Assembly (NCBI GenBank): GCA_011525805.1
Contig: WYBR01000038.1
Span: forward strand, 1 to 55,454
Source of the DNA: Vicinamibacteraceae bacterium
Lineage (GTDB): Bacteria; Planctomycetota; Phycisphaerae; Phycisphaerales; UBA5793
Direction: 5' to 3'
DNA: 55,454 nucleotides
Positions 13,082-20,002 of the stretch are shown here, piece by piece. Every line of letters begins with the position of its first letter. The stretch's first letter is position 1. The notes under the pieces are model-generated. The model was not told the DNA's origin. It did no database searches and was given only the letters and a program-made list of their open reading frames with translations. The translations under genes and the position numbers were made by a program.

Positions 13082-13151
13082 GCCCGCCGGCGCGAGCCGT
13101 GCGGCGATGATGGACTTCAAGTCAAGCACCTGGGAAGGTGAAGGGGCTGCG

Positions 13152-14768
13152 ATGAATCCGAACATGATGATCCTCAGTGCAACCAATCCGTGGTTCCTCA
13201 TCGGCGTGCCGGCGGCGGTTGTGCTGCTCGTCACGTTCTTCGCCGCCTTTCTCGCCTCGCGCTACCGGCGCTGCCCGAGCAACCGGGTGCTCGTCGTGTA
13301 CGGCAAGGTGGGGACGAACAAGGCCGCCAAATGCCTGCACGGCGGCGGCACTTTCGTGTGGCCCCTCATCCAGGACTACGCCTACCTCGCCCTCGAGCCC
13401 CTCGTCATCGAGATCCCCCTCGAAGGCGCGCTCTCCTACAACAACATCCGCGTCAACGTGCCCGCGACCTTCACCGTGGGCATCTCGACGGACCCCGTGC
13501 TGATGAACAACGCGGCCGAGCGACTGCTCATGCTCGACGAGCGGAAGATCCGCGACCAGGCGCAGGACATCATCCTCGGCCAGTTGCGCCTCGTCATCGC
13601 CACGCTTTCGATCGAGGAGATCAACAAAGACCGCGAGAAGTTCATGGCCCTGATCAACGAGAACGTTGAGCAGGAGATCAACAAGATCGGCCTCGAACTC
13701 ATCAACGTCAACATCCGCGACATCACGGACGAGAGCGGGTACATCGAGGCGATCGGCAAGCGGGCGGCGGCGGAGGCGGTGAACCGCGCCAAGGTCGAGG
13801 TCTCGCAGCAGGAGCGCGACGGCGCCACCGGCGAAGCCATCGCCGTGCGCGAGAAGATGGTCAACGTCGCCCGCGAAAGCGCCTCGGCGGCGGAAGGCAA
13901 GAAGGAAGCGGAGCGCCGGCAGCGCGTGACCCTCGCCAAACTTGAGGCCGAGTCCGTCACGGGCGAAGTCGAGTCCAAGCGAGACCAGGAGATCGCCGCG
14001 GCCCAGCGCAACGCCGAAACCGTCGCGGCCCGCAAGCAGGCCGAGCAGGAGCAGCGCATCCGCGTCGCCGACGCCGAGTCGATGGCGGTGGGCGGCGAGA
14101 ACGAGGCGAACGCGAAGATCGCCGAGTCAAACGCGAAACTCGCGGAGATCCGGGCCGAGGCCAAGCGCCGGGCCGAAGTCGCCGCGGCCAAGGCCCTCGA
14201 GGCCGTCCTCGTCGCCGAGCGCGAGCAGGAACTCGCCCGCCTCGCCAAGGAACAACTCGCCCCGCAGGAGATCGAAAAGAAGCGCATCGAGATCGCCGCC
14301 GAGGCCGAGGCGGAGAAGTTGCGGCGCGAGGCGCGCGGCAACGCGGACGCCATCCTCGCCAAATACATCGCCGAGGCCGAGGGCATTCAGAAAGTCCTCG
14401 AAGCCAAGGCCGAGGGCTACCGCAAACTCGTCGCCGCCTGCGCCGAGAACCCGCAGGTTGCGCCGACGCTGCTGATGATCGAGCAGTTGCCCAACATCGT
14501 CGCCGAGCAGGTCAAGGCGATTCAGAATCTCAAGATCGACAAGATCACCGTCTGGGACAGCGGCCGCAACGGCCACGGCGCCAACGGCTCAACGGCGGAC
14601 TTCCTTTCGAGCCTCATCGGTTCGCTGCCGGCGATGCACGAACTGGCCAGGCAGGCGGGCGTCGAACTGCCCAGTGTCCTCGGCAAAGTGCGCGAGGACA
14701 ACCATCGCGACCGATCGATGTACGTGGATTCGCATCCTTCAAGGAAGGACGGCGCCGGCCAGGCGTGA
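13152..14768 (+). CDS. Flotillin/YqiK family SPFH-domain protein
   Basis: Scaffold protein of membrane microdomains. Of 538 residues, an N-terminal membrane helix covers about 12-36, the SPFH/band-7 domain about 40-205 (VNVPATFTVGIST, IGLELINVNIRDI) and a long Ala/Glu-rich coiled coil about 210-430 (repeated AEAE and EIxxKR patterns). A conserved helical C-terminus follows (LMIEQLPNIVAEQVKAIQNL). The ATG at 13152 is preceded by GAAGGGG at proper distance; an ATG at 13107 in the same frame is the alternative. It pairs with the NfeD-like gene upstream. A 12 bp stem at 14789-14820 follows the stop. Confidence 0.92.
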   Translation: MNPNMMILSATNPWFLIGVPAAVVLLVTFFAAFLASRYRRCPSNRVLVVYGKVGTNKAAKCLHGGGTFVWPLIQDYAYLALEPLVIEIPLEGALSYNNIRVNVPATFTVGISTDPVLMNNAAERLLMLDERKIRDQAQDIILGQLRLVIATLSIEEINKDREKFMALINENVEQEINKIGLELINVNIRDITDESGYIEAIGKRAAAEAVNRAKVEVSQQERDGATGEAIAVREKMVNVARESASAAEGKKEAERRQRVTLAKLEAESVTGEVESKRDQEIAAAQRNAETVAARKQAEQEQRIRVADAESMAVGGENEANAKIAESNAKLAEIRAEAKRRAEVAAAKALEAVLVAEREQELARLAKEQLAPQEIEKKRIEIAAEAEAEKLRREARGNADAILAKYIAEAEGIQKVLEAKAEGYRKLVAACAENPQVAPTLLMIEQLPNIVAEQVKAIQNLKIDKITVWDSGRNGHGANGSTADFLSSLIGSLPAMHELARQAGVELPSVLGKVREDNHRDRSMYVDSHPSRKDGAGQA

Positions 14769-14913: not shown

Positions 14914-16593
14914 TCAGAACCGCACCGTCTCCACCGCCATTTCGATGGGCGGGCCTTTACCGGTCTGTTTCCAGAGTTCGTAGAGGGTGTCGCCCCAGTG
15001 GTCGGTGTGGTTGCCTTCGCGCAGGGCGTCGATGTAGTGGCGCGTGACGGTCTGGTAGTAGAGCGTCACCTTCGCGCCCGCGGCCTTCGGTGGAATGGGG
15101 AAGGAAACGTCGTCCCAATGCTGCCCATCGGCGTAGGCGGCGCCGACGACCGGGGCGCCGCCCTCCTCGAAGCGCGCGTTCGTGAAGCCGCGCGGCGGAA
15201 TGCGGTTGTCAAACTCGATCGTGTCGGCGAGGGCCATGTGCGTCGTCACGCCCGGCGGCAGGCCGGTGATCCGCGCCGCCTCCGCGCTCAACCCGACGCG
15301 CATCTCGTAGACGCGCGTGGAGGCCTCGTCGAGATGGGCGGTGAGCGGATCGTAATGGCCGTACTCGTGGATCAGCCGGCCCGCGGCGTTGAAGAACTGA
15401 ACGTTGAGGAAGACGCGGCGGCCTTCGATGTGGCCGGTCGGGAGTTTGTGTCCGGTCTCGTTGATGACGCGGACGCCGAGCCCGTCGCCCTCGCGCGCGA
15501 CCTGCAGTGTCGCGGCCCGCTGGAGCATCGAGATGCTCCGCGACTTCGCCTCCGCCAGCGCCTGCTTGTTGACGATCGGGTCGTTGCGGTAGTAGATTGC
15601 GATGATGTCGAGCACCCAGGTGGCCGATCCGGCGAAGTGGTGCTGCGCCACGTCGGTTCGCCACGGGCCGAAGCGGCTGGCGCGTCCGGGGTAGCGGGGC
15701 ATGTGGCAGTCCTGGCAGGTCTCGATGACCGTCGCGCCCGGGCCGCCGAAGCGGCCCTGCATGTTCACGCCCCCGTCCGCGAACTCGCTGAGTTTCCACT
15801 CCGTGAAGGTGCGCTCGAGGGGGAACTGCGCCCACGGGTCTTCATCGGGGGTCGGTTCGTCGATCGTGTTGTAGCGGTACGAGCCATCGGGCTGGCGCGA
15901 GACGGCGACGTTTCCGACGTCGTGGCACGTGCCGCAGAAATTCGACGAGCGGTGGAAGGGCGAGGGGAGGAACTCGTGCATCGGCTGGGCGTCCTCGCGC
16001 GGCCCGCGCCGGCGGCCCTGCGGATCGAGCACGAACATCGCGTTGGCGTAGAACTCCGGCACCGACACTAGACCGTCGAGAATGGCGCGATCCTCCGGCG
16101 GGCTGATGCCGTCCTTGTAGTCGGGATCGACCATCGAATGGCAGAAGTGGCACGAGACACCGTCGAAGTCGTAGTCGTTGAGCGACCGGCCGCTCGGATC
16201 ATTCGCGTGCCCGCTGACGAAGGACATCGGCGCGTGGCATCGGAGGCAGTAATAGCCGACGTTGCCGACGTCCTGATTGGCGGTGGTGAGTTGGGCGAAG
16301 AAGAGCGGATCGCGGGCCGCGTGGGACATGAGCGAGCCCTGCCAGGACCACGTGGCGTCTTCGCCTTCGATGTGGGTGCGGCGGCTGCTCGGGCCGTGGC
16401 ACTCGATGCAGGCGTCGGAGGTCTTGATGACACGCGGCGAGACTTCGCCGACCTGAGTGCCGGAGAGGTGGAAGTCCTCCATCGTCATCTCGATGAGCGA
16501 AGCGAGGGCGACGGTGCAGAGCGCCAGGAAGGCGACGGCGGCGAGGCGGGGCACGCGGCGCGGCGCGAGACGATTGGACCGGGAGTGCAGCAT
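14914..16593 (-). CDS. Exported pentaheme cytochrome c
   Basis: 559 residues with an uncleaved or cleavable hydrophobic N-terminus (about 17-34) and five CXXCH haem c sites: C62-H66, C116-H120, C148-H152 (CHFCH), C220-H224 and C293-H297. A beta-rich C-terminal half without haems follows, including TGHKLPTGHIEGRR, a pattern shared with multihaem cytochrome c554-like proteins. It should act in the periplasm as electron carrier or reductase; the terminal acceptor is not evident. The ATG at 16593 is used because the ORF extension to 17037 is antisense to the neighbouring gene. It diverges from the polyferredoxin gene over a ~370-base gap. Confidence 0.88.
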   Translation of the reverse strand: MLHSRSNRLAPRRVPRLAAVAFLALCTVALASLIEMTMEDFHLSGTQVGEVSPRVIKTSDACIECHGPSSRRTHIEGEDATWSWQGSLMSHAARDPLFFAQLTTANQDVGNVGYYCLRCHAPMSFVSGHANDPSGRSLNDYDFDGVSCHFCHSMVDPDYKDGISPPEDRAILDGLVSVPEFYANAMFVLDPQGRRRGPREDAQPMHEFLPSPFHRSSNFCGTCHDVGNVAVSRQPDGSYRYNTIDEPTPDEDPWAQFPLERTFTEWKLSEFADGGVNMQGRFGGPGATVIETCQDCHMPRYPGRASRFGPWRTDVAQHHFAGSATWVLDIIAIYYRNDPIVNKQALAEAKSRSISMLQRAATLQVAREGDGLGVRVINETGHKLPTGHIEGRRVFLNVQFFNAAGRLIHEYGHYDPLTAHLDEASTRVYEMRVGLSAEAARITGLPPGVTTHMALADTIEFDNRIPPRGFTNARFEEGGAPVVGAAYADGQHWDDVSFPIPPKAAGAKVTLYYQTVTRHYIDALREGNHTDHWGDTLYELWKQTGKGPPIEMAVETVRF

Positions 16594-16963
16594 GTACGGC
16601 CCTTTCCTTGGAGGTAGTCGGGACGAGAGGAGCGGGGGCGAGCGGATTGTACAGGATGAACAGAGTGTCTTATCCGCTTTATTCCCGGCGGCCTGGGTCT
16701 TAATGCTGCGTCCGGCGACAAAAGCGGTTGCATCCGAACCTGAATTCCCTGGCTGAAGGCGATCCGCCGCGCTCTTGCGGCCGGAGGCGGCCGGGGCTTC
16801 GTCGGCCGTGGCAGTCGCGGGAAATAATCTGAGTACCATATCCTGTTCTGCTCTCCGCCCTGCTCCACCCGCGCGAGGCCTCACCGTGCCGAGGAATCCA
16901 GCCAGACGTCCGGTCCGCCGCTGCGCCGGCCGGCCCGAGGAAGCGCCGACCGGCGCCGCGGAC

Positions 16964-18637
16964 ATGGCGAGGCGCCGTAACCGGGCGGCGCCGGTCGGCG
17001 CTGTGGACACGACTCCGCCCGGCGCGGCGCCGCGCACCCGGCCGCGATACGGACGCTGGCGGGCGGGGGCGCTGATCGCCGTCTACTTCCTGATGGCCGC
17101 GCACTTCGTCCACTGGCGCTGGGCCGGCACGACGCTGGCGCCGCTCGAACTCAACGAGGTCATGTACACGTTTGAGGCGGGCGTTGTCACCGCGGGATTC
17201 GTGTTCATGGCCGTCGCCGTGCTGTCGGTGCTCTTCTTCGGCCGCTTCTTCTGCTCCTGGGGCTGCCACATCCTCGCGCTCGAAGACCTCTGCGCCTGGC
17301 TCCTGCGCCGAGCCGGGATTCGACCGAAGCCGATTCGTTCGCGGCTGCTGCTGCTCGTGCCGCCTGCGGCACTCGTCTACATGTTCATGTGGCCGCAGGT
17401 CGCGCGGCTCATCGAAGGCCGCCCCGCGCCGGCGTGGCGCATCATGTCGCCCGACGATCCGTGGGGCTCGTTCCTCACCACCGACTTCACGCGCAACCTG
17501 CCCGGGCCGTTCATCGCGCTGCTCACCTTCTTCGTCTGCGGCTTTCTCATCGTGTACCTGCTCGGCTCGCGGTCGTTCTGCCGCTTTGTGTGCCCCTACG
17601 GCGCCGCCTTTGCGCTCGCCGATCGACTCGCGCCGGGGCGGATCGTCCGCGTCGGGGCGGGGTGTGACGGGTGCGGAGCCTGCACCGCCGCGTGCAAGTC
17701 CAACATTCTCGTGCATGAAGAGATCCGCATCCACGGCAAGGTGGTCAGTCCCGACTGCCTCAAGGACCTGGATTGTGTGGCCGCGTGCCCGCATGAGTCG
17801 CTGCGCTGGGGGCTGACGACGCCGGCCCTCTTTCGATCCTGGAGCAGGCGCGGCCGCCGGCCGCGGCGGTGGGACGCATCGCTTTCCGAGGAACTTCTGA
17901 TGGCGGGCGTTTTCATGGCGAGCCTGCTCATTCTGCGCGGGCTGTACGATGCGGTGCCGTTCCTGCTGGCGCTCGGATGTGCGGCAGTGCTGTCGTGGGC
18001 GGCGGTGATGTCGCAGCGTCTGGCGCGGCGGCCGCGAGTCGATCTCGGCCATGTCGCGCTGCGCCGGCGCGGGCGGCTCACGGCGCCCGGCGGCGTCTTC
18101 GCGCTGATCGCGGCGGCGCTGGTCGTGCTGCTGGTCCACAGCGCCTTCATCCGCTGGCACGAGTGGCGCGGGCAGGCGGCGTTCGAGCAGTTGCGCGCGG
18201 CGACAATGCGCCGTGATGCCGCGTCAACCACCACCGCCGCCGCAACGGTCATTCACCATCTTGGGCTCTGCGATCGCTTCGGCCTGGTGCGTTCGACGCT
18301 GCTCGACCAGCGCCTGGCGAGCGCGTACGAGTGGAGCGATGCGCCGCTCGGAGCCGAGCCTCATCTGCGCCGACTCATGGCGCGAAGGTCCGATGATGTC
18401 GAGCCGCGCCTGCGCCTGGCGTCGCTGCTCATCGTGGCGGGCCGGCTTGAAGAGGCTGGCGAGACCCTTGCCGCACTCGATCGGATCGTCGATTCGAGCG
18501 CAGGCGCGATTGATGCGCGGACGCGGCAGCGGGTGCAGGCGGCGCATGACGTGCTGGCGCGACTCTCCGAGCGGCAGGGGCAATCCGACGGGGCGGTCGA
18601 CCGGTTTGAACCTACTGGATCGCCGTCGCGCCCCTAA
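16964..18637 (+). CDS. NapH/CcoG-like membrane polyferredoxin with TPR-like tail
   Basis: Predicted quinol-to-cytochrome electron transfer membrane protein, 557 residues. Membrane helices surround the paired motifs FFCSWGCHIL and FCRFVCPYGA typical of NapH/NosR-type proteins. A ferredoxin domain has a complete first motif (C234, C237, C240, C244) but the second reads C265-D268-C271-C275, with Asp at the second ligand position. Two more helices follow, then helical repeats (about 410-550) resembling TPR. The start is unsure: ATG 16964 is chosen, but the frame is open from 16775 and no strong ribosome site is seen. The divergent pentaheme cytochrome is the obvious partner. The gap 16594-16963 has AT-rich promoter-like patches near 16670 and 16830 and no gene. 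Confidence 0.82.
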   Translation: MARRRNRAAPVGAVDTTPPGAAPRTRPRYGRWRAGALIAVYFLMAAHFVHWRWAGTTLAPLELNEVMYTFEAGVVTAGFVFMAVAVLSVLFFGRFFCSWGCHILALEDLCAWLLRRAGIRPKPIRSRLLLLVPPAALVYMFMWPQVARLIEGRPAPAWRIMSPDDPWGSFLTTDFTRNLPGPFIALLTFFVCGFLIVYLLGSRSFCRFVCPYGAAFALADRLAPGRIVRVGAGCDGCGACTAACKSNILVHEEIRIHGKVVSPDCLKDLDCVAACPHESLRWGLTTPALFRSWSRRGRRPRRWDASLSEELLMAGVFMASLLILRGLYDAVPFLLALGCAAVLSWAAVMSQRLARRPRVDLGHVALRRRGRLTAPGGVFALIAAALVVLLVHSAFIRWHEWRGQAAFEQLRAATMRRDAASTTTAAATVIHHLGLCDRFGLVRSTLLDQRLASAYEWSDAPLGAEPHLRRLMARRSDDVEPRLRLASLLIVAGRLEEAGETLAALDRIVDSSAGAIDARTRQRVQAAHDVLARLSERQGQSDGAVDRFEPTGSPSRP

Positions 18638-18688: not shown

Positions 18689-19063
18689 ATGCCCGACCGC
18701 GCGCTCCTCGAAGTCTTCCCCACCCCCGCCGACTCGCCTTTTGTGATCGAGCACGTCGCAGAGGAGTTCACCAGCCTGTGCCCGAAGACGGGGCAGCCGG
18801 ACTTCGGCGTCATTACGCTGCGCTACGCGCCGGCCGCGCGCGGCGTGTGCGTCGAACTCAAGAGCCTCAAACTCTACTACCAGTCCTTCCGCAACGAGGG
18901 CATCTTCTACGAAGCGGTGACGAACCGCATCCGCGACGATCTGGTCGCGCTCATGCACCCCGCCTGGCTGCAGGTCGTCACCGACTGGAAGGGACGCGGT
19001 GGTATCCGTTCGCGCATCCGTGCGGAGTACGGCGACGTGCCGGTTGATTGGCGCACGCGCTGA
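18689..19063 (+). CDS. queF: NADPH-dependent 7-cyano-7-deazaguanine reductase
   Basis: Reduces preQ0 to preQ1 in queuosine biosynthesis. 124 residues, the unimodular YkvM type. The thioimide-forming Cys31 and Asp38 lie in SLCPKTGQPDF, and the QueF signature E-L-K-S-L-K-L-Y-Y spans residues 56-64, followed by QSFRNE. The protein is slightly shorter than many homologues but complete. No other queuosine gene or preQ1 riboswitch is seen nearby. It follows the polyferredoxin gene by about 50 bases on the same strand, without an evident functional link. Confidence 0.93.
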   Translation: MPDRALLEVFPTPADSPFVIEHVAEEFTSLCPKTGQPDFGVITLRYAPAARGVCVELKSLKLYYQSFRNEGIFYEAVTNRIRDDLVALMHPAWLQVVTDWKGRGGIRSRIRAEYGDVPVDWRTR

Positions 19064-19236: not shown

Positions 19237-19378
19237 CAGACCGTTCGTGCCGCCGCGTCGCCCTCCGGTCGCAGCCTTCGATGCAGACTCAGGCGGGGAA
19301 ACCTCCCTCCAGACCACGGCACCCGATCGCCGTGTCCCGCGCGCCGCGAGAGCGAGTCGGCGCCGCATACACTTGGGC

Positions 19379-20002
19379 ATGGCGGCGACGCGCGAGATTC
19401 AGGATCACTACTTTCGTGAGGCGAAACGGCTCGGCTATGTCGCGCGCTCGGCCTTCAAACTCACGGAAATCCTCGAGAAGAAGTCGCTGATCAGGCCAGG
19501 CCACTACGTGCTCGACCTCGGCTGCGCGCCGGGAGCGTGGCTCCAGGTGGCTTGCCAGCACGTCGGGCCGGCGAGCAAAGGCGGACTCGTTCTTGGCCTC
19601 GATCTGAAATCCGTCCGAACTCCGCTGCGCTTCTGCGATGAGGCGCTCATCACGCGCGAGAGCGACGTGTTCAAGGTGACGGCTGGCGAACTGCTCGATC
19701 TCACGAATCGGCGGCACTTCGATCTCGTCATGTCGGACATGATGGCCTCGACGAGCGGCCATCACCACACCGATCACTACCAGTCGATCCACCTCGCGCG
19801 GCGGGCGCTCGAACTGGCCGGAGAAGTGCTCCGCGCGGGCGGGTCGTTCATCGTCAAGGTCTTCGAGGGTGCGGAGTATCCGGCCTTTCTGGCCGAGTGC
19901 AGGGCCCGATTCGACAAGGCCAAGGGCTTCAAGCCCAAGGCGTCGCGGAACGAATCGACGGAGATGTACATCATCGGCGAAGGCTTCGTGCCGGCGAAGT
20001 GA
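19379..20002 (+). CDS. rlmE: Ribosomal RNA large subunit methyltransferase E (FtsJ/RrmJ)
   Basis: 2'-O-methylates U2552 of 23S rRNA using SAM. 207 residues, usual length. Motifs: RSAFKLTEI (catalytic Lys at 27), LDLGCAPGAW (SAM site), DLVMSDMMA (catalytic Asp), GGSFIVKVFEG (catalytic Lys) and ESTEMYIIG (catalytic Glu), so the K-D-K-E tetrad is intact. The SDMA region reads SDMMASTSG, close to the norm. The ATG at 19379 matches the family N-terminus. The frame is open much further upstream through the palindrome, which is not coding. It converges with the lipoprotein gene with only three bases between stops. Confidence 0.95.
   Translation: MAATREIQDHYFREAKRLGYVARSAFKLTEILEKKSLIRPGHYVLDLGCAPGAWLQVACQHVGPASKGGLVLGLDLKSVRTPLRFCDEALITRESDVFKVTAGELLDLTNRRHFDLVMSDMMASTSGHHHTDHYQSIHLARRALELAGEVLRAGGSFIVKVFEGAEYPAFLAECRARFDKAKGFKPKASRNESTEMYIIGEGFVPAK

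Follow-up and report, generated by a model that had tools for sequence, protein, structure and literature searches.

The window, that is, the whole stretch of 55,454 nucleotides that was analysed, carries a gene for a membrane-bound, ferredoxin-like protein and, divergently oriented next to it, a gene for a multiheme cytochrome, with the following features:

14914..16593, minus strand: pentaheme cytochrome c, the divergent neighbour, with heme motifs CIECH, CLRCH, CHFCH, CGTCH and CQDCH and a C-terminal beta domain; putative ATG start at 16593
16964..18637, plus strand: NapH/NosR-like membrane ferredoxin of 557 amino acids, counted from the ATG at 16964, a putative start codon in an open reading frame that opens at 16775
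17252..17269, plus strand: membrane motif C97-x3-C101-H102, the equivalent of the first CX3CP of NapH/NosR; NapH has Pro at the H102 position
17579..17596, plus strand: membrane motif C206-x3-C210-P211, the second CX3CP
17663..17695, plus strand: first cluster motif C234-DG-C237-GA-C240-TAA-C244 (CxxCxxCxxxC)
17756..17788, plus strand: second cluster motif C265-LK-D268-LD-C271-VAA-C275-P
17765..17767, plus strand: GAC codon of Asp268, which occupies the site of the sixth cluster cysteine

The first-pass annotation had pointed to an Asp that replaces a cluster-ligand Cys in the second ferredoxin motif, and this substitution, encoded by GAC at 17765-17767, was confirmed; the frame and coordinates, and the residue numbers counted from the ATG at 16964, were correct as well. 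The second motif occurs only once in the window. The likeness then drawn to the pattern of Pyrococcus furiosus ferredoxin is borne out by C265-x2-D268-x2-C271 together with the distal C244 and C275. Overall, the interpretation offered in that annotation is supported in part. Under the usual dicluster pattern, which we take to apply here, the ligands of cluster I would be C234, C237, C240 and C275, and those of cluster II C265, D268, C271 and C244.

The protein gave a Pfam match to Fer4_5 (PF12801) above the gathering score (38.9 bits versus 22, in two stretches), together with a TPR domain, and its previous description as a membrane electron-transfer-type protein is supported. Prediction and an AlphaFold model built from 38 homologues (mean pLDDT 88.5) place helices at about residues 29-54, 77-92, 129-151, 182-200, 307-324, 333-355 and 374-396/415, and the order of secondary structure in the model corresponds to a dicluster ferredoxin domain, transmembrane helices and a TPR solenoid. 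The ferredoxin domain spans residues 225-284, with all eight ligand positions carried from a strand at 225-229 to a strand at 280-284, and the TPR domain occupies residues 419-547 at the C-terminus, the helical solenoid after the last transmembrane helix matching TPR structures in Foldseek. When the whole model was used, nearly all Foldseek matches were to TPR proteins and were uninformative for the membrane part. Charge bias places the ferredoxin loop (17 Lys/Arg, 9 Asp/Glu) inside and the TPR part, three helices later, outside; the ferredoxin domain is therefore predicted from sequence to be cytoplasmic and the TPR domain periplasmic, on a seven-helix module. The two CX3C motifs come directly after helices 2 and 4 and are predicted to lie on the cytoplasmic face, and H102 is invariant among 38 aligned members. 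Downstream of the gene are a QueF-like 7-cyano-7-deazaguanine reductase (18689-19063, plus strand) and an FtsJ-like methyltransferase (19376-20002, plus strand), both ordinary housekeeping genes.

Homologues were collected by full-protein whole-genome searches of 61 relatives, of 397 genomes from the class and of 59 from the order to which an acidobacterial homologue belongs, and from loci of a collection scan, one seed of which, DCLKDLDC, contains the Asp motif; the resulting set comprised 142 distinct sequences with readable ligand positions from about 100 genomes of several phyla. At the D268 position 73 of these have Cys, 60 Asp, seven Thr and two Ser, while Ala, Gly, His and Asn were found in none of the 142. 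The other seven ligand positions are Cys in all but two of the 130 sequences read, the sole deviations being in L081 and L121, both Cys-type, in which the second Cys of the first motif is Ser and Arg, respectively. A congeneric genome encodes a protein 80-82% identical to the window protein with the same Asp, and the recurrence of the substitution in this protein and in 60 of 142 homologues puts it far beyond chance. The nearest named homologue of the window protein, from an uncultured planctomycete, is 80% identical, and the window's genome is accordingly planctomycete-like. It had been asked whether the Asp is conserved or a sequencing or assembly variant; it is conserved, and close homologues carry Asp rather than all having Cys. 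The named hosts of Asp forms belong to Planctomycetota, Acidobacteriota, Bacteroidota and Myxococcota, those in the last three phyla having come from the scan with the Asp-motif seed; the acidobacterial result was repeated without seed bias, yielding two further Asp and ten Cys forms. One Asp-type homologue (L051; G399:C39:9244-10830) contains one in-frame TGA stop within the match.

A tree of the 142 sequences was constructed after removal of the ligand column and the columns next to it; its outgroup branch is very long, and it was read without a settled root or a direction for the main change between Cys and Asp. Its main division, supported with an SH-aLRT of 99, yields an Asp clade with 60 Asp and three Cys members and a Cys clade with 70 Cys, seven Thr and two Ser members. 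The ligand state changes 8 times on the tree, compared with 52 times when labels are shuffled. The three Cys within the Asp clade look like reversions, so that the Asp is not indispensable. Within the Cys clade, six of the Thr/Ser sequences group together as a single clade with a support of 100, and the other three, all Thr, are isolated. Both Asp and Cys forms occur in at least 23 genomes, including the window's own, whose Cys form on contig 17 is 41% identical to the window protein. At the level of sequence, these comparisons show that, in a clade extending over multiple phyla, a conserved Asp stands in place of one cysteine only, the second of the second ferredoxin motif, and that a Cys-type paralogue exists alongside. 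Asp is the hallmark of a whole bacterial subfamily that is apparently uncharacterised; a described Asp-type NapH was not found in the literature searched, which included few subscription journals.

The orthologues of the divergent cytochrome (55-66% identity) form a set apart from its paralogues (below 49%) and carry the heme motifs CxxCH, C[LM]RCH, CHFCH, CGTCH and CQDCH at nearly constant spacing. A model of the cytochrome, of low confidence (pLDDT 67), matched PDB 5ze8 in Foldseek (E 1.4e-10, TM-score 0.59 by target), which was also found by a profile search (E 2.6e-7). This entry is the penta-heme cytochrome c552 of Thermochromatium tepidum, with five hemes and a similar fold in common, although the sequence identity is only about 16%. 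Assignment as an NrfA pentaheme nitrite reductase was rejected, as Pfam and NCBIfam scans gave no match of the cytochrome to the NrfA catalytic-subunit family and a profile made from it reached NrfA chains only at E 0.007. In orthologues such as L094, L099, L108, L116 and L120, a C-terminal GDxxxDG-rich stretch matches dockerin-type calcium-binding repeats; the window cytochrome ends before this stretch. A flotillin-like gene (Band_7, Flot; 13107-14768, plus strand) adjoins the cytochrome gene, and FloA genes recur near Cys-type members (five of 70 neighbour proteins), possibly by coincidence.

Gene neighbourhoods were counted for loci flanked by 3 kb or more on both sides, 34 of Asp type and 24 of Cys type. 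The Asp type is preferentially encoded beside a pentaheme cytochrome c, which lies next to the gene at 13 of the 34 Asp loci and at none of the 24 Cys loci (Fisher p 0.0003, uncorrected for relatedness), often 4-220 bp away on the same strand but divergent in the window and in L009, L011 and L012. Cytochromes with at least three hemes lie near 20 of the 34 Asp loci (21 counting the window) versus one of the 24 Cys loci. The pentaheme partner is not obligatory, since it is absent at 21 of 34 Asp loci and the congeneric genome that has the Asp protein contains no pentaheme gene at all. Within the Cys clade, four of the six members of the Thr/Ser subclade have a pentaheme gene next door, and a fifth has Rrf2 and beta-eliminating-lyase neighbours, as found near Asp forms. 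Heme neighbours had been predicted for the isolated Thr members as well, but no heme protein lies near any of the three. Loss of the cysteine thus goes with a pentaheme partner in two separate parts of the tree, though not always; the association between ligand and neighbour covers about two independent ligand changes, and a phylogenetic pair test had only two usable pairs and thus no power. Five Asp loci have an Rrf2 regulator nearby and three a hemerythrin protein, and neither was found near the 24 Cys loci, a hint of a link to oxygen or nitric oxide. Two further observations concern the neighbours. A beta-eliminating lyase (PF01212; L100:7483-9048, also near L087, L088, L095, L106, L113, L145 and L244) was found repeatedly next to members of the Asp and Thr types and near none of the Cys type, and the pentaheme gene beside a Thr-type member at L244:9016-11003 is split over two frames, pointing to a frameshift or to a fault in the assembly.

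Several explanations other than a functional Asp ligand may be considered. The window sequence rests on a single assembly contig, yet an error of sequencing or assembly, or a private mutation, at D268 has a negligible probability, given the same residue in the congeneric homologue and in other Asp-type homologues; the presence of Asp in homologues excludes a sequencing error. Neutral drift of the ligand, with Cys and Asp forms equivalent in function and Asp reflecting ancestry only, would be consistent with the three reversions to Cys in the Asp clade, with the scattered Thr changes in the Cys clade and with the retention of both forms by the same genomes. However, the seven other ligand positions hardly vary, and Asp is kept in 60 of the 63 members of its clade, most of which share no more than about 40-55% identity with the window protein; this constancy, together with the sharp difference between the gene neighbourhoods of the two clades, makes drift less likely, and we regard it as improbable.

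A serious alternative, although on balance a rather unlikely one, is that the Asp is no iron ligand. The second cluster would then be permanently of the [3Fe-4S] type, like that of 7Fe ferredoxins, and the position could be filled by any small polar residue, whether Asp, Thr or Ser. Thr and Ser do occur there among the homologues, and the mycobacterial ferredoxins examined with Thr, Ser or other residues at the position hold [3Fe-4S] clusters (PMC6237146), so that the Asp may not bind iron. On the other hand, no other substitute comes near Asp in frequency, even very divergent members retain it, and Ala and Gly, which are typical of 3Fe sites (PMC6237146), are absent from the 142 sequences. 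In P. furiosus ferredoxin, Asp replaces the second Cys of CxxCxxC and binds the unique iron, and the cluster is of the 3Fe form when isolated under air and of the 4Fe form without oxygen, with potentials of -160 mV and -375 mV, respectively; its redox partner is described as still unknown (PMC6237146). The cluster of Desulfovibrio africanus ferredoxin III is a reactive 3Fe cluster that takes up metal ions (PMC13111528).

By analogy with such systems, we infer the cluster type and the function of the Asp-type protein, and the explanation that we prefer, and consider reasonably probable as a whole, is a NapH/NosR-like module with a site-differentiated, probably 3Fe/4Fe-convertible cluster that is linked to quinone and serves a periplasmic pentaheme cytochrome. 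The membrane part of NapH has been proposed to oxidise menaquinol (PMC5928378), and by this precedent the helices with the CX3C(H/P) pairs may exchange electrons with quinol. The cytoplasmic ferredoxin domain would hold one ordinary [4Fe-4S] cluster (C234, C237, C240, C275) and a second, site-differentiated one (C265, D268, C271, C244), whose unique iron may be held weakly by the carboxylate, which would result in an altered potential and in reversible loss of iron on oxidation, from [4Fe-4S] to [3Fe-4S]. The periplasmic TPR domain may dock the pentaheme cytochrome, the presumed redox partner of the Asp-type protein, which would in turn deliver electrons to a periplasmic acceptor or receive them from a donor there. 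The Asp would tune, or redox-gate, the cytoplasmic end of an electron wire. A bolder and unlikely extension is that exchange of Cys for an oxygen ligand, once to Asp and separately to Thr/Ser, might be a recurrent evolutionary switch by which a NapH-like module becomes partner to a pentaheme cytochrome; the cytoplasmic cluster would then gate transmembrane electron flow in an oxygen-, iron- or NO-sensitive manner.

Naturally Asp-ligated clusters are known mainly from small ferredoxins. In the family described here, one cluster occurs naturally in Cys, Asp, Thr and Ser versions within otherwise similar membrane proteins, with the Cys and Asp types together in one genome and a candidate redox partner for the Asp type, and the role of a non-Cys ligand is therefore directly testable.

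Among known systems, the ferredoxin of P. furiosus and ferredoxin III of D. africanus have a site-differentiated cluster, as is proposed for the window protein; both are small and soluble, whereas the window domain sits in a polytopic membrane protein and carries its Asp in the second of two motifs. For the membrane part, the closest comparison is with NapH, NosR and RdhC, which have in common a membrane module with two CX3CP motifs (PMC5928378). NapH, as encoded by napH of E. coli K-12, resembles the window protein in that a membrane module of four helices, with two CX3C motifs, precedes a ferredoxin domain with two clusters. All eight cluster positions of E. coli NapH are Cys, however, and both of its membrane motifs read CX3CP. 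The window family has CX3CH as its first motif and Asp at the sixth cluster position, and in addition three further helices and a TPR domain; its neighbour is a multiheme cytochrome in place of the nap genes. The best NCBIfam model was NapH/MauN (TIGR02163), with 56 bits against a cut-off of 213. Of the features that define NapH, two all-Cys 4Fe-4S motifs after the fourth helix are broken by D268 in the second motif, and two membrane CX3CP motifs by CX3CH in the first, the second being CX3CP; by score and motifs, membership in NapH is ruled out. NosR and RdhC (PceC) are similar in the membrane module, and NosR also has two C-terminal 4Fe-4S motifs, but the match of the window protein to the NosR model reaches only 20.9 bits, and Pfam and NCBIfam scans of its 557 amino acids found no N-terminal FMN-binding domain, a further difference. 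Given the Cys and CX3CP pattern of E. coli NapH and the CX3CH found here, the protein has the module common to NapH, NosR and RdhC and yet is not NapH; judged by its sequence, it is the Asp-type member of a NapH/NosR-like family that is apparently unnamed.
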